Shown in pieces: positions 25,305 to 29,147 of a stretch of 64,000 bases of DNA. The DNA is taken from contig NZ_CP024201.1 of NCBI RefSeq assembly GCF_002749615.1, positions 1,178,001-1,242,000 on the forward strand. Reading direction: 5' to 3'. A model generated the notes under the pieces. That model saw nothing but the letters and a program-made list of their open reading frames with translations, was not told the DNA's origin and made no database searches. The DNA comes from Caulobacter mirabilis (GTDB lineage Bacteria > Pseudomonadota > Alphaproteobacteria > Caulobacterales > Caulobacteraceae). A program made the translations under genes and the position numbers. Numbering within the stretch: the first letter of the stretch is position 1; every line of letters starts with the position of its first letter.

Positions 25305-25512
25305 CAGTCTGAACGTTCGGAAATCTGACGTAGCAACGGCTTCGGTTCTTGACCGGTCTCGATCATTAGCTGGAGTATTCTGAATTCGTTGCTGGCATCC
25401 AAGCAGGTAGGTGCTTGTGTGCGGCAATATATCCCTATATGCACGCCACAACTGGATCGCGTGGGACCGATTCCAGTTGGGCTCAATCATTCCAGTGGTG
25501 GAACAAGGCCAG

Positions 25513-25932
25513 ATGGAAGACAAATCGGCGATCATTGAAATGACGACGGACATTGTGTCCGCGTATGTCGGCAACAACACGGTTGCTGCGAGCGATATTC
25601 CGGGTTTGATTCAGAACGTGCACAAGGCGCTCAGCGAAGTCGCCACCGGCACGATCACGGTCGAAGTCGCGCCCAAGGAGCCTGCGGTTCCGGTGCGCCG
25701 TTCGATTACGCCGGACTATCTGATCTGCCTTGAGGACGGACGGAAGTTCAAGTCGCTCAAGCGTCACCTTCGCACCAAGTACAACATGAGCCCCGAGGAA
25801 TACCGGGCGAAGTGGGGTTTGCCGAAGGATTATCCGATGGTCGCGCCGAACTACGCCAAGGCGCGCTCGGATCTGGCCAAGCAGATGGGCCTGGGCCAGG
25901 GCGGCCGTCAGGCGGCGCGCAAGAAGCGCTGA
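25513..25932 (+). CDS. mucR: MucR/Ros family transcriptional regulator
   Basis: The 139-residue product starts MEDKSAIIEMTTDIVSAYVG (oligomerisation helix) and has the Ros/MucR DNA-binding core YLICLEDGRKFKSLKRHL (residues about 76-93) followed by SPEEYRAKWGLPKDYPMVAPNYA. The first Cys and one His of the zinc site are present, but the second Cys is Asp and the last His is replaced (RTKYN), as in some MucR proteins. In Caulobacter two MucR paralogues silence genes, including cell-cycle targets. ATG 25513 matches the family start; the frame runs 34 codons further upstream. The leader is unusually AT-rich, the kind of DNA MucR binds, so autoregulation is plausible. Confidence 0.9.
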   Translation: MEDKSAIIEMTTDIVSAYVGNNTVAASDIPGLIQNVHKALSEVATGTITVEVAPKEPAVPVRRSITPDYLICLEDGRKFKSLKRHLRTKYNMSPEEYRAKWGLPKDYPMVAPNYAKARSDLAKQMGLGQGGRQAARKKR

Positions 25933-26161: not shown

Positions 26162-26653
26162 ATGGCCGCGCAACTGGGCGCTTCCGCGACCGCCGCTCGC
26201 GCCCACGAGGAGTTGTTCGCCTACTGGGCGTCGCTGCGCCGGGCCGGCCGTCTGCCGTCCCGGGCGGACATCGACCCGGCGGGGTTCAAGCGGCTCCTGC
26301 CGACCGTCAGCCTCATCGACATCGTCCCCGGCGAACGCCGTGATTACCGCCTGCGCCTCGCCGGCACCGGCCTCTACACCGTCTATGGCCGCGAGATCAC
26401 CGGCCGTACGCTGGGCGAGGTCTATGGTCAGCGCGTCGCCGAAGACTGGCGGACCGAACTCGACCGGATCGTCGAAGATCGCCGGCCGGGCGTGGGCTGC
26501 CACAGCCTGTCCTGGCGGGGCAGCGCCCACGCGTCCTTGCTCTGGTTGCGGCTGCCGCTGGCCAGCGACGGGCGCAACGTCGACATGATCCTCGGCTACG
26601 ACGCCGTCGTCGGCGTTCAAGGCGATTCCGCCAGCGGCATCCGCGCCGCCTGA
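26162..26653 (+). CDS. PAS domain-containing protein
   Basis: The 163-residue protein is essentially one PAS fold: a helical cap (AHEELFAYWASLRRAGRLPSR), a core containing FKRLLPTVSLIDIV and YRLRLAGTGLYTVYGREITGRTL, and a C-terminal sheet. There is no output domain. It belongs to the alphaproteobacterial stand-alone PAS group (PAS_5-like) whose members include cell-cycle accessory proteins; the ligand is unknown. The promoter region holds a GANTC palindrome, and mucR lies just upstream on the same strand with a terminator between. Confidence 0.75.
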   Translation: MAAQLGASATAARAHEELFAYWASLRRAGRLPSRADIDPAGFKRLLPTVSLIDIVPGERRDYRLRLAGTGLYTVYGREITGRTLGEVYGQRVAEDWRTELDRIVEDRRPGVGCHSLSWRGSAHASLLWLRLPLASDGRNVDMILGYDAVVGVQGDSASGIRAA

Positions 26654-26711
26654 CTGGACCTATCCCCGGCCTATCCCGATCCCGCGCCAGGGCAACCGCC
26701 CGCGCCGTATT

Positions 26712-26752
26712 GATAATTTTCCTATCGAGTCGCCTTGAATAGGAAAATTATC
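26712..26752. promoter_or_regulatory. 14-bp perfect AT-rich inverted repeat upstream of the HdaB-like gene
   Basis: GATAATTTTCCTAT (26712-26725) and ATAGGAAAATTATC (26739-26752) are perfect inverted copies with a 13-nt spacer. The arms are 79% A+T in a very GC-rich region. There is no T-tract after it, so it is more likely an operator or unwinding/structured element than a terminator. Confidence 0.6.
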
Positions 26753-26756
26753 CACC
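26748..26756 (+). promoter_or_regulatory. DnaA-box-like sequence
   Basis: TTATCCACC differs from the DnaA-box consensus TTATCCACA in the last base only. It overlaps the right arm of the palindrome at 26712-26752 and lies 69 bp before a gene for a DnaA-domain-IV protein. Confidence 0.4.
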
Positions 26757-26824: not shown

Positions 26825-27196
26825 ATGGCCGCGGCGCATGAGAGAGAAGACGACCCCTGGGGAGAGCCCCCTGAGTATCGGCGAGATCGGCTGGCGGCCG
26901 CTTTCGTCACCAGTCTGGTGGCCTGGACGCTGGACGTGCCGATGCGGGAGATGGCCGCGCGGCGGCGATCGACGGCGGCGGCCTCGCGCGGCCGGCAGGT
27001 CGCGATCTATCTGGCGCATGTGACGTTGGCCTGGTCGATGTCGCGGGTGGCCACGGCCTTCGGACGGGATCGCACCACCGCCAGCCACGCCATCCATGTG
27101 GTCGAGGATCTGCGGGACGACGCTGCTTTCGACGCCCTGCTGACGGCGCTGGAGGCCAGCATCCGCCATGCCTGCGAAGCGCCGGCGGCGGCATGA
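26825..27196 (+). CDS. hdaB: HdaB-like DnaA domain IV protein
   Basis: The 123-residue protein has no AAA+ domain, but its second half (SRGRQVAIYLAHVTLAWSMS and VATAFGRDRTTASHAI) reads like DnaA domain IV, the DnaA-box-binding helix-turn-helix. In Caulobacter, HdaB is a small DnaA-related protein that interferes with HdaA-dependent inactivation of DnaA and so promotes replication; the position between mucR and divJ agrees with it as I recall. ATG 26825 follows GGGAGGAGG, a strong site; the frame is open to a TTG at 26735 inside the palindrome. It overlaps the DUF6456 gene by ATGA. Confidence 0.7.
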   Translation: MAAAHEREDDPWGEPPEYRRDRLAAAFVTSLVAWTLDVPMREMAARRRSTAAASRGRQVAIYLAHVTLAWSMSRVATAFGRDRTTASHAIHVVEDLRDDAAFDALLTALEASIRHACEAPAAA

Positions 27197-27915
27197 TCGA
27201 GATCGATCGCATGACGGCTCGGGCGGGCGTGATCCTGTCGCAACCCGGGGCCTGGCTCGAGGCCGACGGACAGGGCGGCTACCTCGTGCGCTCGTCGCCC
27301 GATCGGCGGCGACGCGCCGCGCTCAGGCTCTGTGAGGCCGGCTTCGTCGCGCTGTCGCGGGAGCCGGGCCTCAGCGTCCGGCCGGAAGGCGGCTGGCGCC
27401 TCGTCCGCGCGGCGAGGCCGGCGACCTTGCCCGCCGCAAACCGGCCCAGCGTGGTCGAGGGCGTCCGAACCTGCGTGGGGCCGGACGGCGCCGTGACCCA
27501 GCGGGCGGTGAACCTTGGGGAATCGCCGATCGCCTGGTTGGCCCGCCGACGCGATGCGAACGGCCGGCCCTGGTTGAGGCCGGTCGAGATGGTCGCCGCC
27601 GAGAAGCTGCGGGACGACTTCACTCTGGCCGGGACGGTCGGTCGGCTGACCATGGCCTGGGACGCCGGGCCGAAGACCAGGGGCGGACGTGGTCCCGGCG
27701 TCGATCCGGCGGAGCGCGCCAGGGCGGCCAAGGCGCGGATCGCGCGGGCGCTGGACGACGTCGGCCCCGGGCTGCGCGAGGTTCTGGTGAAGGTCTGTTT
27801 CGCTGGGACGGCCCTGGAAGCCGCGGAACGCGACCTGGGGCTGCCGAGACGGGCGGGCAAGACGGTCCTGAAGCTGGCGCTGGCTCGCCTGGCCCGGCAC
27901 TACGGCCTCGGCTGA
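27193..27915 (+). CDS. DUF6456 domain-containing protein, coupled to the HdaB-like gene
   Basis: The 240-residue product starts at the ATG of an ATGA overlap with the preceding gene, so translation is coupled. The N-terminal 70 residues are a small basic domain; residues 100-235 match the alphaproteobacterial DUF6456 region (NLGESPIAWLARR, VEMVAAEKLRDDF, LREVLVKVCFAGTALEAAERDLGLPRRAGKTVLKLAL). The last segment resembles a sigma-factor-like helix-turn-helix, suggesting DNA binding. The function is unknown. The fixed partnership with a DnaA-related protein makes a replication or cell-cycle role plausible. Confidence 0.72.
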   Translation: MIEIDRMTARAGVILSQPGAWLEADGQGGYLVRSSPDRRRRAALRLCEAGFVALSREPGLSVRPEGGWRLVRAARPATLPAANRPSVVEGVRTCVGPDGAVTQRAVNLGESPIAWLARRRDANGRPWLRPVEMVAAEKLRDDFTLAGTVGRLTMAWDAGPKTRGGRGPGVDPAERARAAKARIARALDDVGPGLREVLVKVCFAGTALEAAERDLGLPRRAGKTVLKLALARLARHYGLG

Positions 27916-27919
27916 GCCG

Positions 27920-28345
27920 CTAGGCGGCCAGGGCCTGGGCGTCCCGGGCGATCCGCGCCGCCATCGACGCCAGGCCGTTGGAGCGTTGGGTCGACAGGGC
28001 GCCGCTCAGGCCCAGCGTGTCGAAGGCCGCCTTCGTGTCGAAGCGGGCGATGTCCGCGGCCGGCCGGCCGGAAAACAGCCGCAGCAGAACCGCGATCAGC
28101 CCGCGCACGATATGGGCGTCCGAATCTCCACGGAAGATGATCGCGCCGTCCGCCTGGGGCTCGGTGACCAGCCATACCTGGCTGGCGCAGCCCCGCACCT
28201 TGTTGGCTTCGCTGCGCTCGGCGTCGGTCAGGGGCGCCAGCTCGCGACCCAGCTCGATCACGTAGCGATAGCGCTCCTCCCAGTCCCCGAGCAGCTCGAA
28301 CTCGGCGGCGAGGTCTTCCAGGGCGGTGTCGATCGTTTCAGCCAT
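27920..28345 (-). CDS. sufE: SufE family Fe-S cluster assembly protein
   Basis: The 141-residue protein has the SufE signature: Cys53 in VRGCASQVW, preceded by DWEERYRYVIELGREL, and the later ADSDAHIVRGLIAVLLRLF-like segment. SufE takes persulfide sulfur from the cysteine desulfurase SufS onto this Cys and passes it to the Suf scaffold. ATG 28345 is favoured over an extension of 15 codons. It is convergent with the DUF6456 gene (4 nt apart) and stands apart from any suf operon here. Confidence 0.9.
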   Translation of the reverse strand: MAETIDTALEDLAAEFELLGDWEERYRYVIELGRELAPLTDAERSEANKVRGCASQVWLVTEPQADGAIIFRGDSDAHIVRGLIAVLLRLFSGRPAADIARFDTKAAFDTLGLSGALSTQRSNGLASMAARIARDAQALAA

Positions 28346-28367
28346 ACGCCGGGGACTTAGGGCGGCG

Positions 28368-29147
28368 TCAGGCGGCGGGCAAGACCACACAGGCGCGCAG
28401 GCCGCCGCCGACCGCCGGTTCCAGCCACAGGCGACCGCTCATGGCCTCGGCCAGCAGGACGGCGATGGGCAGGCCCAGGCCCGCGCCCTGTGTCGACCGG
28501 CTGAGTGCGTTGTCGCCCTGTTCGAAGGGGTTCATCATCCGCGGGATCTCGGCCGGGTCGACCCCGTCGCCATGGTCCCGGATCGCGATCTCGACGGTTT
28601 CGCCGCGCGGGGTGGCGGAAATCTCGATCACGCCGCCGACCGGACCGTAGAGCGCCGCGTTCTGAATGAGGTTGGCCAGCAGGGTCCGGAGACCCTTGGG
28701 ATCAGCGAAGACCGAGGGCAGGGCGCCGTCGTCGGCCACGGCGAGCGTCGCCTGGCGTTCCGTCAGATCGCCCTTGAGCTGGTCGCGGACGTCGTCGAGG
28801 GCATGGTCCAGCGCGACCGGGCGCGGGACGATGTCGACGGGCTGGCCCTGGAGTCGCGCGACCTCCAGCACCTGGTTCACCAGCTTGAGCAACCGATAGC
28901 CGCTGTCGCGAACGTGCTCGGCGTACTGGCGATACTGCGGCGCGCCGAGCGGGCCGTAGAGTTCGCCGGCGATGATCTCCGAGAAGCCGATGATGGCGTT
29001 CAGCGGCGTCCGCAGCTCGTGGCTGGCCGTCCGCAGGAAGGCCCGTTTGGCCTCGTCGAGGGTGGCCGCCCGCTCGACGAGCGTCGTCTCGCGCCGGTCT
29101 TCGTCCGCGCGCGGGATGTCTTCTGGCCTGCGCGCCGTCTGCGGCAT
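28368..29147 (-). CDS. Soluble PleC/DivJ-type histidine kinase without sensor domain
   Basis: From ATG 29147 the protein has 259 residues: a short N-terminal helix, a HisKA domain with His43 in SHELRTPLNAIIGFSEI, and an HATPase with NLIQNAALYGP and GAGLGLPIAVLL. No transmembrane helix and no PAS domain are visible, unlike DivJ and PleC, which it resembles in the H-box. The start is preceded by GAGGG; a longer frame to 29243 exists. It is divergent from the divJ-like gene (190 bp between starts). It may act on the same DivK/PleD-type receivers, but this is inference. Confidence 0.78.
   Translation of the reverse strand: MPQTARRPEDIPRADEDRRETTLVERAATLDEAKRAFLRTASHELRTPLNAIIGFSEIIAGELYGPLGAPQYRQYAEHVRDSGYRLLKLVNQVLEVARLQGQPVDIVPRPVALDHALDDVRDQLKGDLTERQATLAVADDGALPSVFADPKGLRTLLANLIQNAALYGPVGGVIEISATPRGETVEIAIRDHGDGVDPAEIPRMMNPFEQGDNALSRSTQGAGLGLPIAVLLAEAMSGRLWLEPAVGGGLRACVVLPAA

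Follow-up and report, generated by a model that had tools for sequence, protein, structure and literature searches.

The coupled DnaA-like and DUF6456 genes of Caulobacter mirabilis as gafYZ, the activator operon of a gene transfer agent

The gene pair, its neighbours and its upstream operators

Within the 64,000-nucleotide stretch of Caulobacter mirabilis DNA analysed here (the window), a small gene for a DnaA domain IV-like protein runs into a DUF6456 gene with an ATGA overlap, and the domain searches and coordinates confirmed this arrangement, which had been proposed by a sequence-only reading. The two genes are named gafY and gafZ below, and the features of the locus are as follows:

25,411 to 25,932, forward strand: mucR-type regulator, upstream context (PF05443, E 3.2e-52)
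26,162 to 26,653, forward strand: mopJ, the 5' neighbour of gafY (NF051868 CellCycRegMopJ, E 3.7e-83)
26,711 to 26,753, no strand: perfect 14-nt inverted repeat with two RogA-type operators, found in the sequence and related to GGAA-N4-TTCC
26,825 to 27,196, forward strand: gafY (formerly hdaB), DnaA domain IV-like DNA-binding protein, 123 aa from the ATG (Bac_DnaA_C, PF08299, E 2e-10)
27,193 to 27,196, forward strand: ATGA overlap of the gafY stop and the gafZ start, seen in the sequence
27,193 to 27,915, forward strand: gafZ, DUF6456 protein of 240 aa with a predicted sigma region 4-like C-terminus (PF20057, E 1.9e-46)
27,920 to 28,390, reverse strand: sufE, the convergent downstream neighbour (PF02657, E 1.4e-43)

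In the list of open reading frames, the gafY frame starts from a TTG at 26,735 and not from the ATG at 26,825. Published work is cited throughout from excerpts of the papers concerned, and according to one of these, split gafA has mucR upstream and sufE downstream (PMC9638019); the order mucR, mopJ, gafY, gafZ, sufE in the window equals this synteny plus mopJ between mucR and gafY. A profile search of the host genome, which is a single contig, found DUF6456 in a single copy. The GafY profile matched only two places there, gafY itself (119.6 bits, 159-codon frame) and DnaA (48.3 bits, 507-codon frame), and the idea of a separate hdaB paralogue beside gafY was therefore ruled out.

The inverted repeat upstream of gafY has arms at 26,712-26,725 and 26,739-26,752, separated by a 13-nt spacer, and ends 72 nt 5' of the gene. 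Its pattern, which was derived from the site itself, occurs once in the window and in 0 of 100 shuffles. The two predicted operators (26,711-26,722, two mismatches; 26,742-26,753, one mismatch) are of the GGAA-N4-TTCC type reported for RogA (PMC9632790). In 27 of 30 loci of the family Caulobacteraceae, a set that includes many close relatives, a RogA-type site with at most one mismatch lies within 420 nt 5' of the GafY domain, compared with 4.9 expected from shuffles. Among 22 less similar loci, the word ATAGGAA stands upstream of gafY in 17 (0.75 expected). A DnaA-box-like candidate for a GafY motif (TATCCC/GGGATA), picked by eye at the gafYZ promoter of the window and at some promoters of gene transfer agent (GTA) clusters, was dropped; it lies 5' of gafY in 5 of the 22 less similar loci and falls outside the 25 most enriched words, and no GafY-box motif could be defined from these 22 promoters. 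The exact IHF consensus was detected in 2 of the 22 gafYZ promoters and in neither the gafYZ nor the GTA promoter of the window genome.

Identity, protein structure and conservation of the pair

The papers found with the word DUF6456, as far as their excerpts go, concern gene transfer agents. GafA matches are reported to be annotated as DUF6456, the N-terminus of GafA is DnaA-like, and in Hyphomicrobiales a small DnaA-like gene precedes the DUF6456 gene in most cases (PMC9638019). In C. crescentus, CCNA_01111 (earlier hdaB) is gafY and CCNA_01112 is gafZ; each of them is required for GTA production and the two are jointly sufficient, and among 1,331 alphaproteobacteria an adjacent GafY was reported for 494 of 759 GafZ homologues (PMC9632790). 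GafY and GafZ are the split form of GafA, the activator of the alphaproteobacterial GTA, which is a domesticated phage. The pair is thus an already known system, gafYZ, and its description in terms of DUF6456 and HdaB is superseded. The earlier label "HdaB-like" was apt in that the gene is of the kind once called HdaB (CCNA_01111, PMC9632790), whereas the statement that DUF6456 has no known function does not stand, given that the excerpts describe it as GafZ/GafA, a published anti-terminator and GTA activator. We are highly confident that the pair in the window is gafYZ, the direct activator operon of the host GTA.

Rhodobacter capsulatus GafA likewise combines a DnaA-like N-terminal part with a DUF6456/sigma-like C-terminal part and is described as a GTA activator, but it is one fused protein with reported binding to RNA polymerase omega, whereas the window holds two genes with a 4-nt overlap. 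For the C. crescentus proteins, activation by GafY together with IHF and anti-termination by GafZ have been reported (PMC11150451), as has repression by RogA, CdxB and related XRE proteins (PMC13236601, PMC10688885). By analogy with C. crescentus, GafY would bind upstream of GTA promoters, contact the housekeeping sigma factor with the help of IHF and recruit RNA polymerase. GafZ would load on the main GTA promoter, at an element lying between its -35 and -10, and yield a terminator-resistant polymerase, allowing transcription of the whole GTA cluster, while RogA and related repressors would hold the gafYZ operon off.

Among solved structures, the GafY family profile matches DnaA chains, with 1j1v as the best match (E 8e-16), and the GafZ profile found no relative at E below 0.7 among sequences of known structure. 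An AlphaFold model of GafZ built with 10 sequences is weak overall (pLDDT 60), with block means of 70-86 in the C-terminal helices. These helices resemble sigma -35-binding domains, which account for many of the top Foldseek matches (3vfz_A, TMt 0.83, 1.3 A over 59 columns), none of which has an E below 0.36. This weak fold match suggests a sigma region 4-like helix-turn-helix at the GafZ C-terminus, in line with the prediction in PMC11150451, and to this extent it bears out the earlier impression that the C-terminus of the DUF6456 protein is helix-turn-helix-like. In the GafY of both aligned genomes of genus g2 (L023, L067), the putative recognition helix reads NRAT in place of the DRTT or DRTS of most others; this residue difference suggests that g2 GafY may have a different target sequence.

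To describe the coupling across Caulobacteraceae, we fetched 30 of the 32 DUF6456 loci over the cut-off, many of them from close relatives. A GafY match lies directly 5' of DUF6456 in all 30, with an open frame of only 67 codons in one (L111). The ATG or GTG start of gafZ overlaps the gafY stop by 4 nt in 26 of the 30 (raw count), and the four loci lacking this overlap all come from a single genus, g293, in which GafZ is short. In a class-wide set of 385 genomes, DUF6456 matches at E 0.001 were present in 71, and 40 of these were strong (> 100 bits, a cut of our own). Among the 40 strong genomes, 25 have a separate adjacent GafY (10 with the 4-nt overlap), three have a fused gene and one a gene split by a stop codon; an adjacent GafY was not found in 11, of which two have the match at a contig end. 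L002 has a GafA-like gene in which a stop codon separates the DnaA-like from the DUF6456 part of a single frame. Conservation of the overlap, raised in the sequence-only reading, holds within Caulobacteraceae (26/30) and is looser across the class (10/25 separate pairs). The equal or linked synthesis that had been read from the overlap is weakened, as a general rule, by eight GTA-positive relatives that have GafY and no convincing GafZ.

Association with the GTA and the case for replication control

The window genome carries a GTA cluster in which portal, capsid, DUF2460 and GTA_TIM genes form one ordered run (1,375,807-1,386,389 of the contig), with a TerL match directly 5' of it. The published C. 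crescentus GafZ element (letters taken from the excerpt of PMC11150451) recurs before this cluster with 2 mismatches of 14. We fetched nine GTA promoters, from 9 of the 10 marker-positive genomes of the host's own genus, and in all nine the element, with 0 to 3 mismatches, sits 407-479 nt 5' of the TerL match and precedes a -10-like heptamer by 16 nt, these being raw counts. The heptamer is exact in five of the nine, has one mismatch in the window genome and is further off in three, and two own-genus genomes have both the element and the -10 in the exact published form. Additional sites within 3 mismatches of the element occur in L189 and L187. The same comparison of GTA promoters found no element in the family members L138 and L140 and, in L141, which belongs to a different family of the order, a site with 3 mismatches that lacks the -10; L139 was left out as it has no TerL match. 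The exact IHF consensus is present in 5 of the 9 own-genus GTA promoters. The window pair thus shares with C. crescentus GafY-GafZ (CCNA_01111-01112) a single operon for DnaA domain IV-like and sigma-like helix-turn-helix proteins, RogA-type operators upstream and a GTA cluster promoter with a GafZ element. It differs in the two mismatches of the element, the one in the -10 and the exact IHF consensus, which was not found.

We further compared the distribution of the pair with that of the GTA, for which PF13547 (GTA_TIM) served as the only marker within the family. Among 99 Caulobacteraceae genomes, 32 exceeded the cut-off for DUF6456 and 43 that for GTA_TIM; 31 genomes had both, one had DUF6456 only, 12 had GTA_TIM only and 55 had neither (Fisher test, P = 9e-15, kinship ignored). 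The sole genome with DUF6456 only (G425) has a weak match of 28 bits. Within the host's own genus, the same two of 12 genomes (G428 and G452, both 100% complete) lack the GTA marker, GafY and GafZ. GafY was then sought by profile in 38 chosen genomes, where its matches are separated from those of DnaA by a score gap (GafY at least 95 bits in short frames, DnaA at most 54.1 bits); G444 has an additional match, of 28.5 bits in a 272-codon frame, which we did not score as GafY. All 13 marker-positive members of the order (12 family members and G183) have GafY, and none of the 11 marker-negative Caulobacteraceae does, the negatives being defined by the one marker GTA_TIM. With the loci read included, 40 of the 43 marker-positive family genomes were inspected for GafY, and all 40 have it (G418, G462 and G474 lie outside this count).

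The presence or absence of GafY thus follows the GTA marker in 24 of 24 order members, a pattern that a GTA regulator predicts and a general replication regulator would not. This bears directly on the proposal of HdaB as a genuine regulator of replication, one that interferes with the inactivation of DnaA (RIDA) and has DUF6456 as its partner. GafY is indeed homologous to DnaA domain IV (PF08299, and the solved DnaA chains), and PMC9632790 equates HdaB of Caulobacter (Frandi and Collier 2020) with GafY of C. crescentus and relates from the original HdaB study that overexpression raised the copy number of some loci, blocked division and led to cell death. The same paper, in its excerpted text, attributes these effects to GTA production, and its authors propose that GafY does not act on chromosome replication. 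HdaB as described acts on DnaA inactivation, whereas the gene content observed here tracks the GTA marker instead, and none of the 11 marker-negative Caulobacteraceae, the two complete genomes of the same genus among them, carries GafY. We therefore regard a role in replication control as highly improbable. The suggestion that DUF6456 is a partner in such control finds no support, HdaB having been renamed GafY and assigned to GTA activation in the excerpts, and the linkage of GafY to the GTA marker provides an independent genomic argument for the GafY reading.

Lineages that depart from the pairing

Across the class the association is less strict. GTA_TIM was found in 27 of the 40 strong DUF6456 genomes, and 10 of 37 GTA_TIM genomes lack a strong DUF6456. 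PF13547 alone was rejected as a class-wide marker, as it gave false orphans (4 of 13 had a DUF2460 GTA gene), and portal and capsid were therefore added. Nine strong DUF6456 genomes have neither GTA_TIM nor DUF2460; portal was detected in two of the eight searched (all except G372), and capsid was absent in the remaining six, as well as in G311, which has GTA_TIM. In 11 GTA-positive genomes outside the order, the GafY profile matches DnaA only, which counts against strict pairing. DUF6456 is present in six of them (G126, G283, G070, G244, G012 and G325) and absent from G042, G169, G266 (family f44), G110 and G214, in which a GTA_TIM gene was observed with neither GafY nor DUF6456 detected; the GTA of these five genomes, if active, must be differently controlled. 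One genome (G121) has GafY and GafZ and none of the GTA genes sought.

GafY occurs without a convincing GafZ in eight GTA-positive Caulobacteraceae (G356, G421, G434, G485, G409, G429, G450 and G467). In these, GafZ is unrecognisable both beside GafY and elsewhere in the genome, with the exception of an 18-bit hit in G429. At two loci (L145, L150) sufE lies directly 3' of gafY, and gafZ is thus missing from its usual slot. Strongly diverged GafZ of about 27 bits occurs in G447 and G494, and G183 has an 8.9-bit DUF6456 match beside GafY and none genome-wide at E 0.01.

The reverse situation was found in the marine family f20, which consists of Rhodobiaceae MAGs and the isolate IMCC14465. Its 28 genomes include 19 with DUF6456 (18 over the cut-off) and 4 with a portal gene (3 over the cut-off), and of the 18 in which a capsid gene was looked for, 2 have one. 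No DUF6456 match was obtained in the other nine f20 genomes, including G392 (99% complete, 5 contigs), which is also without portal and capsid. The former GTA site adjoins an ABC transporter operon at a distance of 8-9 kb from gafYZ. G385 has open frames all the way from terS to capsid, and in G403 TerL and portal run to the contig end. Seven loci (L100, L101, L102, L103, L104, L106 and L184) have only GTA leftovers, with differing breakpoints and gafYZ kept; a terS-like frame remains in five (29% identity in L106) and a TerL start fragment in four (31-98 residues aligned), and all seven keep the end of a tail protein. L182 was not counted, its contig ending inside a tail-like gene. Less damaged GTA clusters were observed in L174 and L185. 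In the GafZ tree, the root of which is unsure, G403, which still has TerL and portal, groups as the sister of the deleted G408, and the GTA losses therefore look repeated.

These leftovers could be taken to mean that GafYZ has a second, GTA-independent role besides its GTA role, and that this role keeps the pair in GTA-less lineages. The excess of DUF6456 over portal and capsid in f20 is consistent with such a role, as is the dN/dS of gafY, which is 0.01-0.13 in 9 of 13 f20 pairs. However, three distant pairs give 0.26-0.28 and one is saturated, and the leftover GTA fragments have likewise low values (three close pairs lie at 0.07-0.12, and two further pairs at 0.16 and 0.25), so that the deletions may be recent. 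The absence of DUF6456 from nine f20 genomes, among them the near-complete G392, and the apparently repeated losses also speak against a second role, which we judge to be quite unlikely. Low dN/dS in GTA-less genomes is not claimed here as proof of a second function because the GTA leftovers are constrained too. A broader scheme can be drawn from both kinds of exception, in which GafY would be the constant core of the switch and GafZ replaceable, the GTA of several Caulobacteraceae running with GafY alone or with an unrecognised anti-terminator, and in which GafYZ of the marine family would have outlived a GTA cluster repeatedly cut down to terS and a tail fragment, and would now have another job. 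This combined scheme is speculative, and we give it little credence. A limited literature search found no published description of the lineages with GafY and no GafZ or of the f20 leftovers, and none linking IMCC14465 with a gene transfer agent.

Together, these findings close a false lead, as a DnaA-like gene coupled to a DUF gene resembles replication control and belongs to GTA activation, and the labels HdaB and DUF6456 are misleading in this respect. The exceptions, namely GafY without GafZ and GafYZ without a GTA, mark lineages in which the two published functions could be separated.
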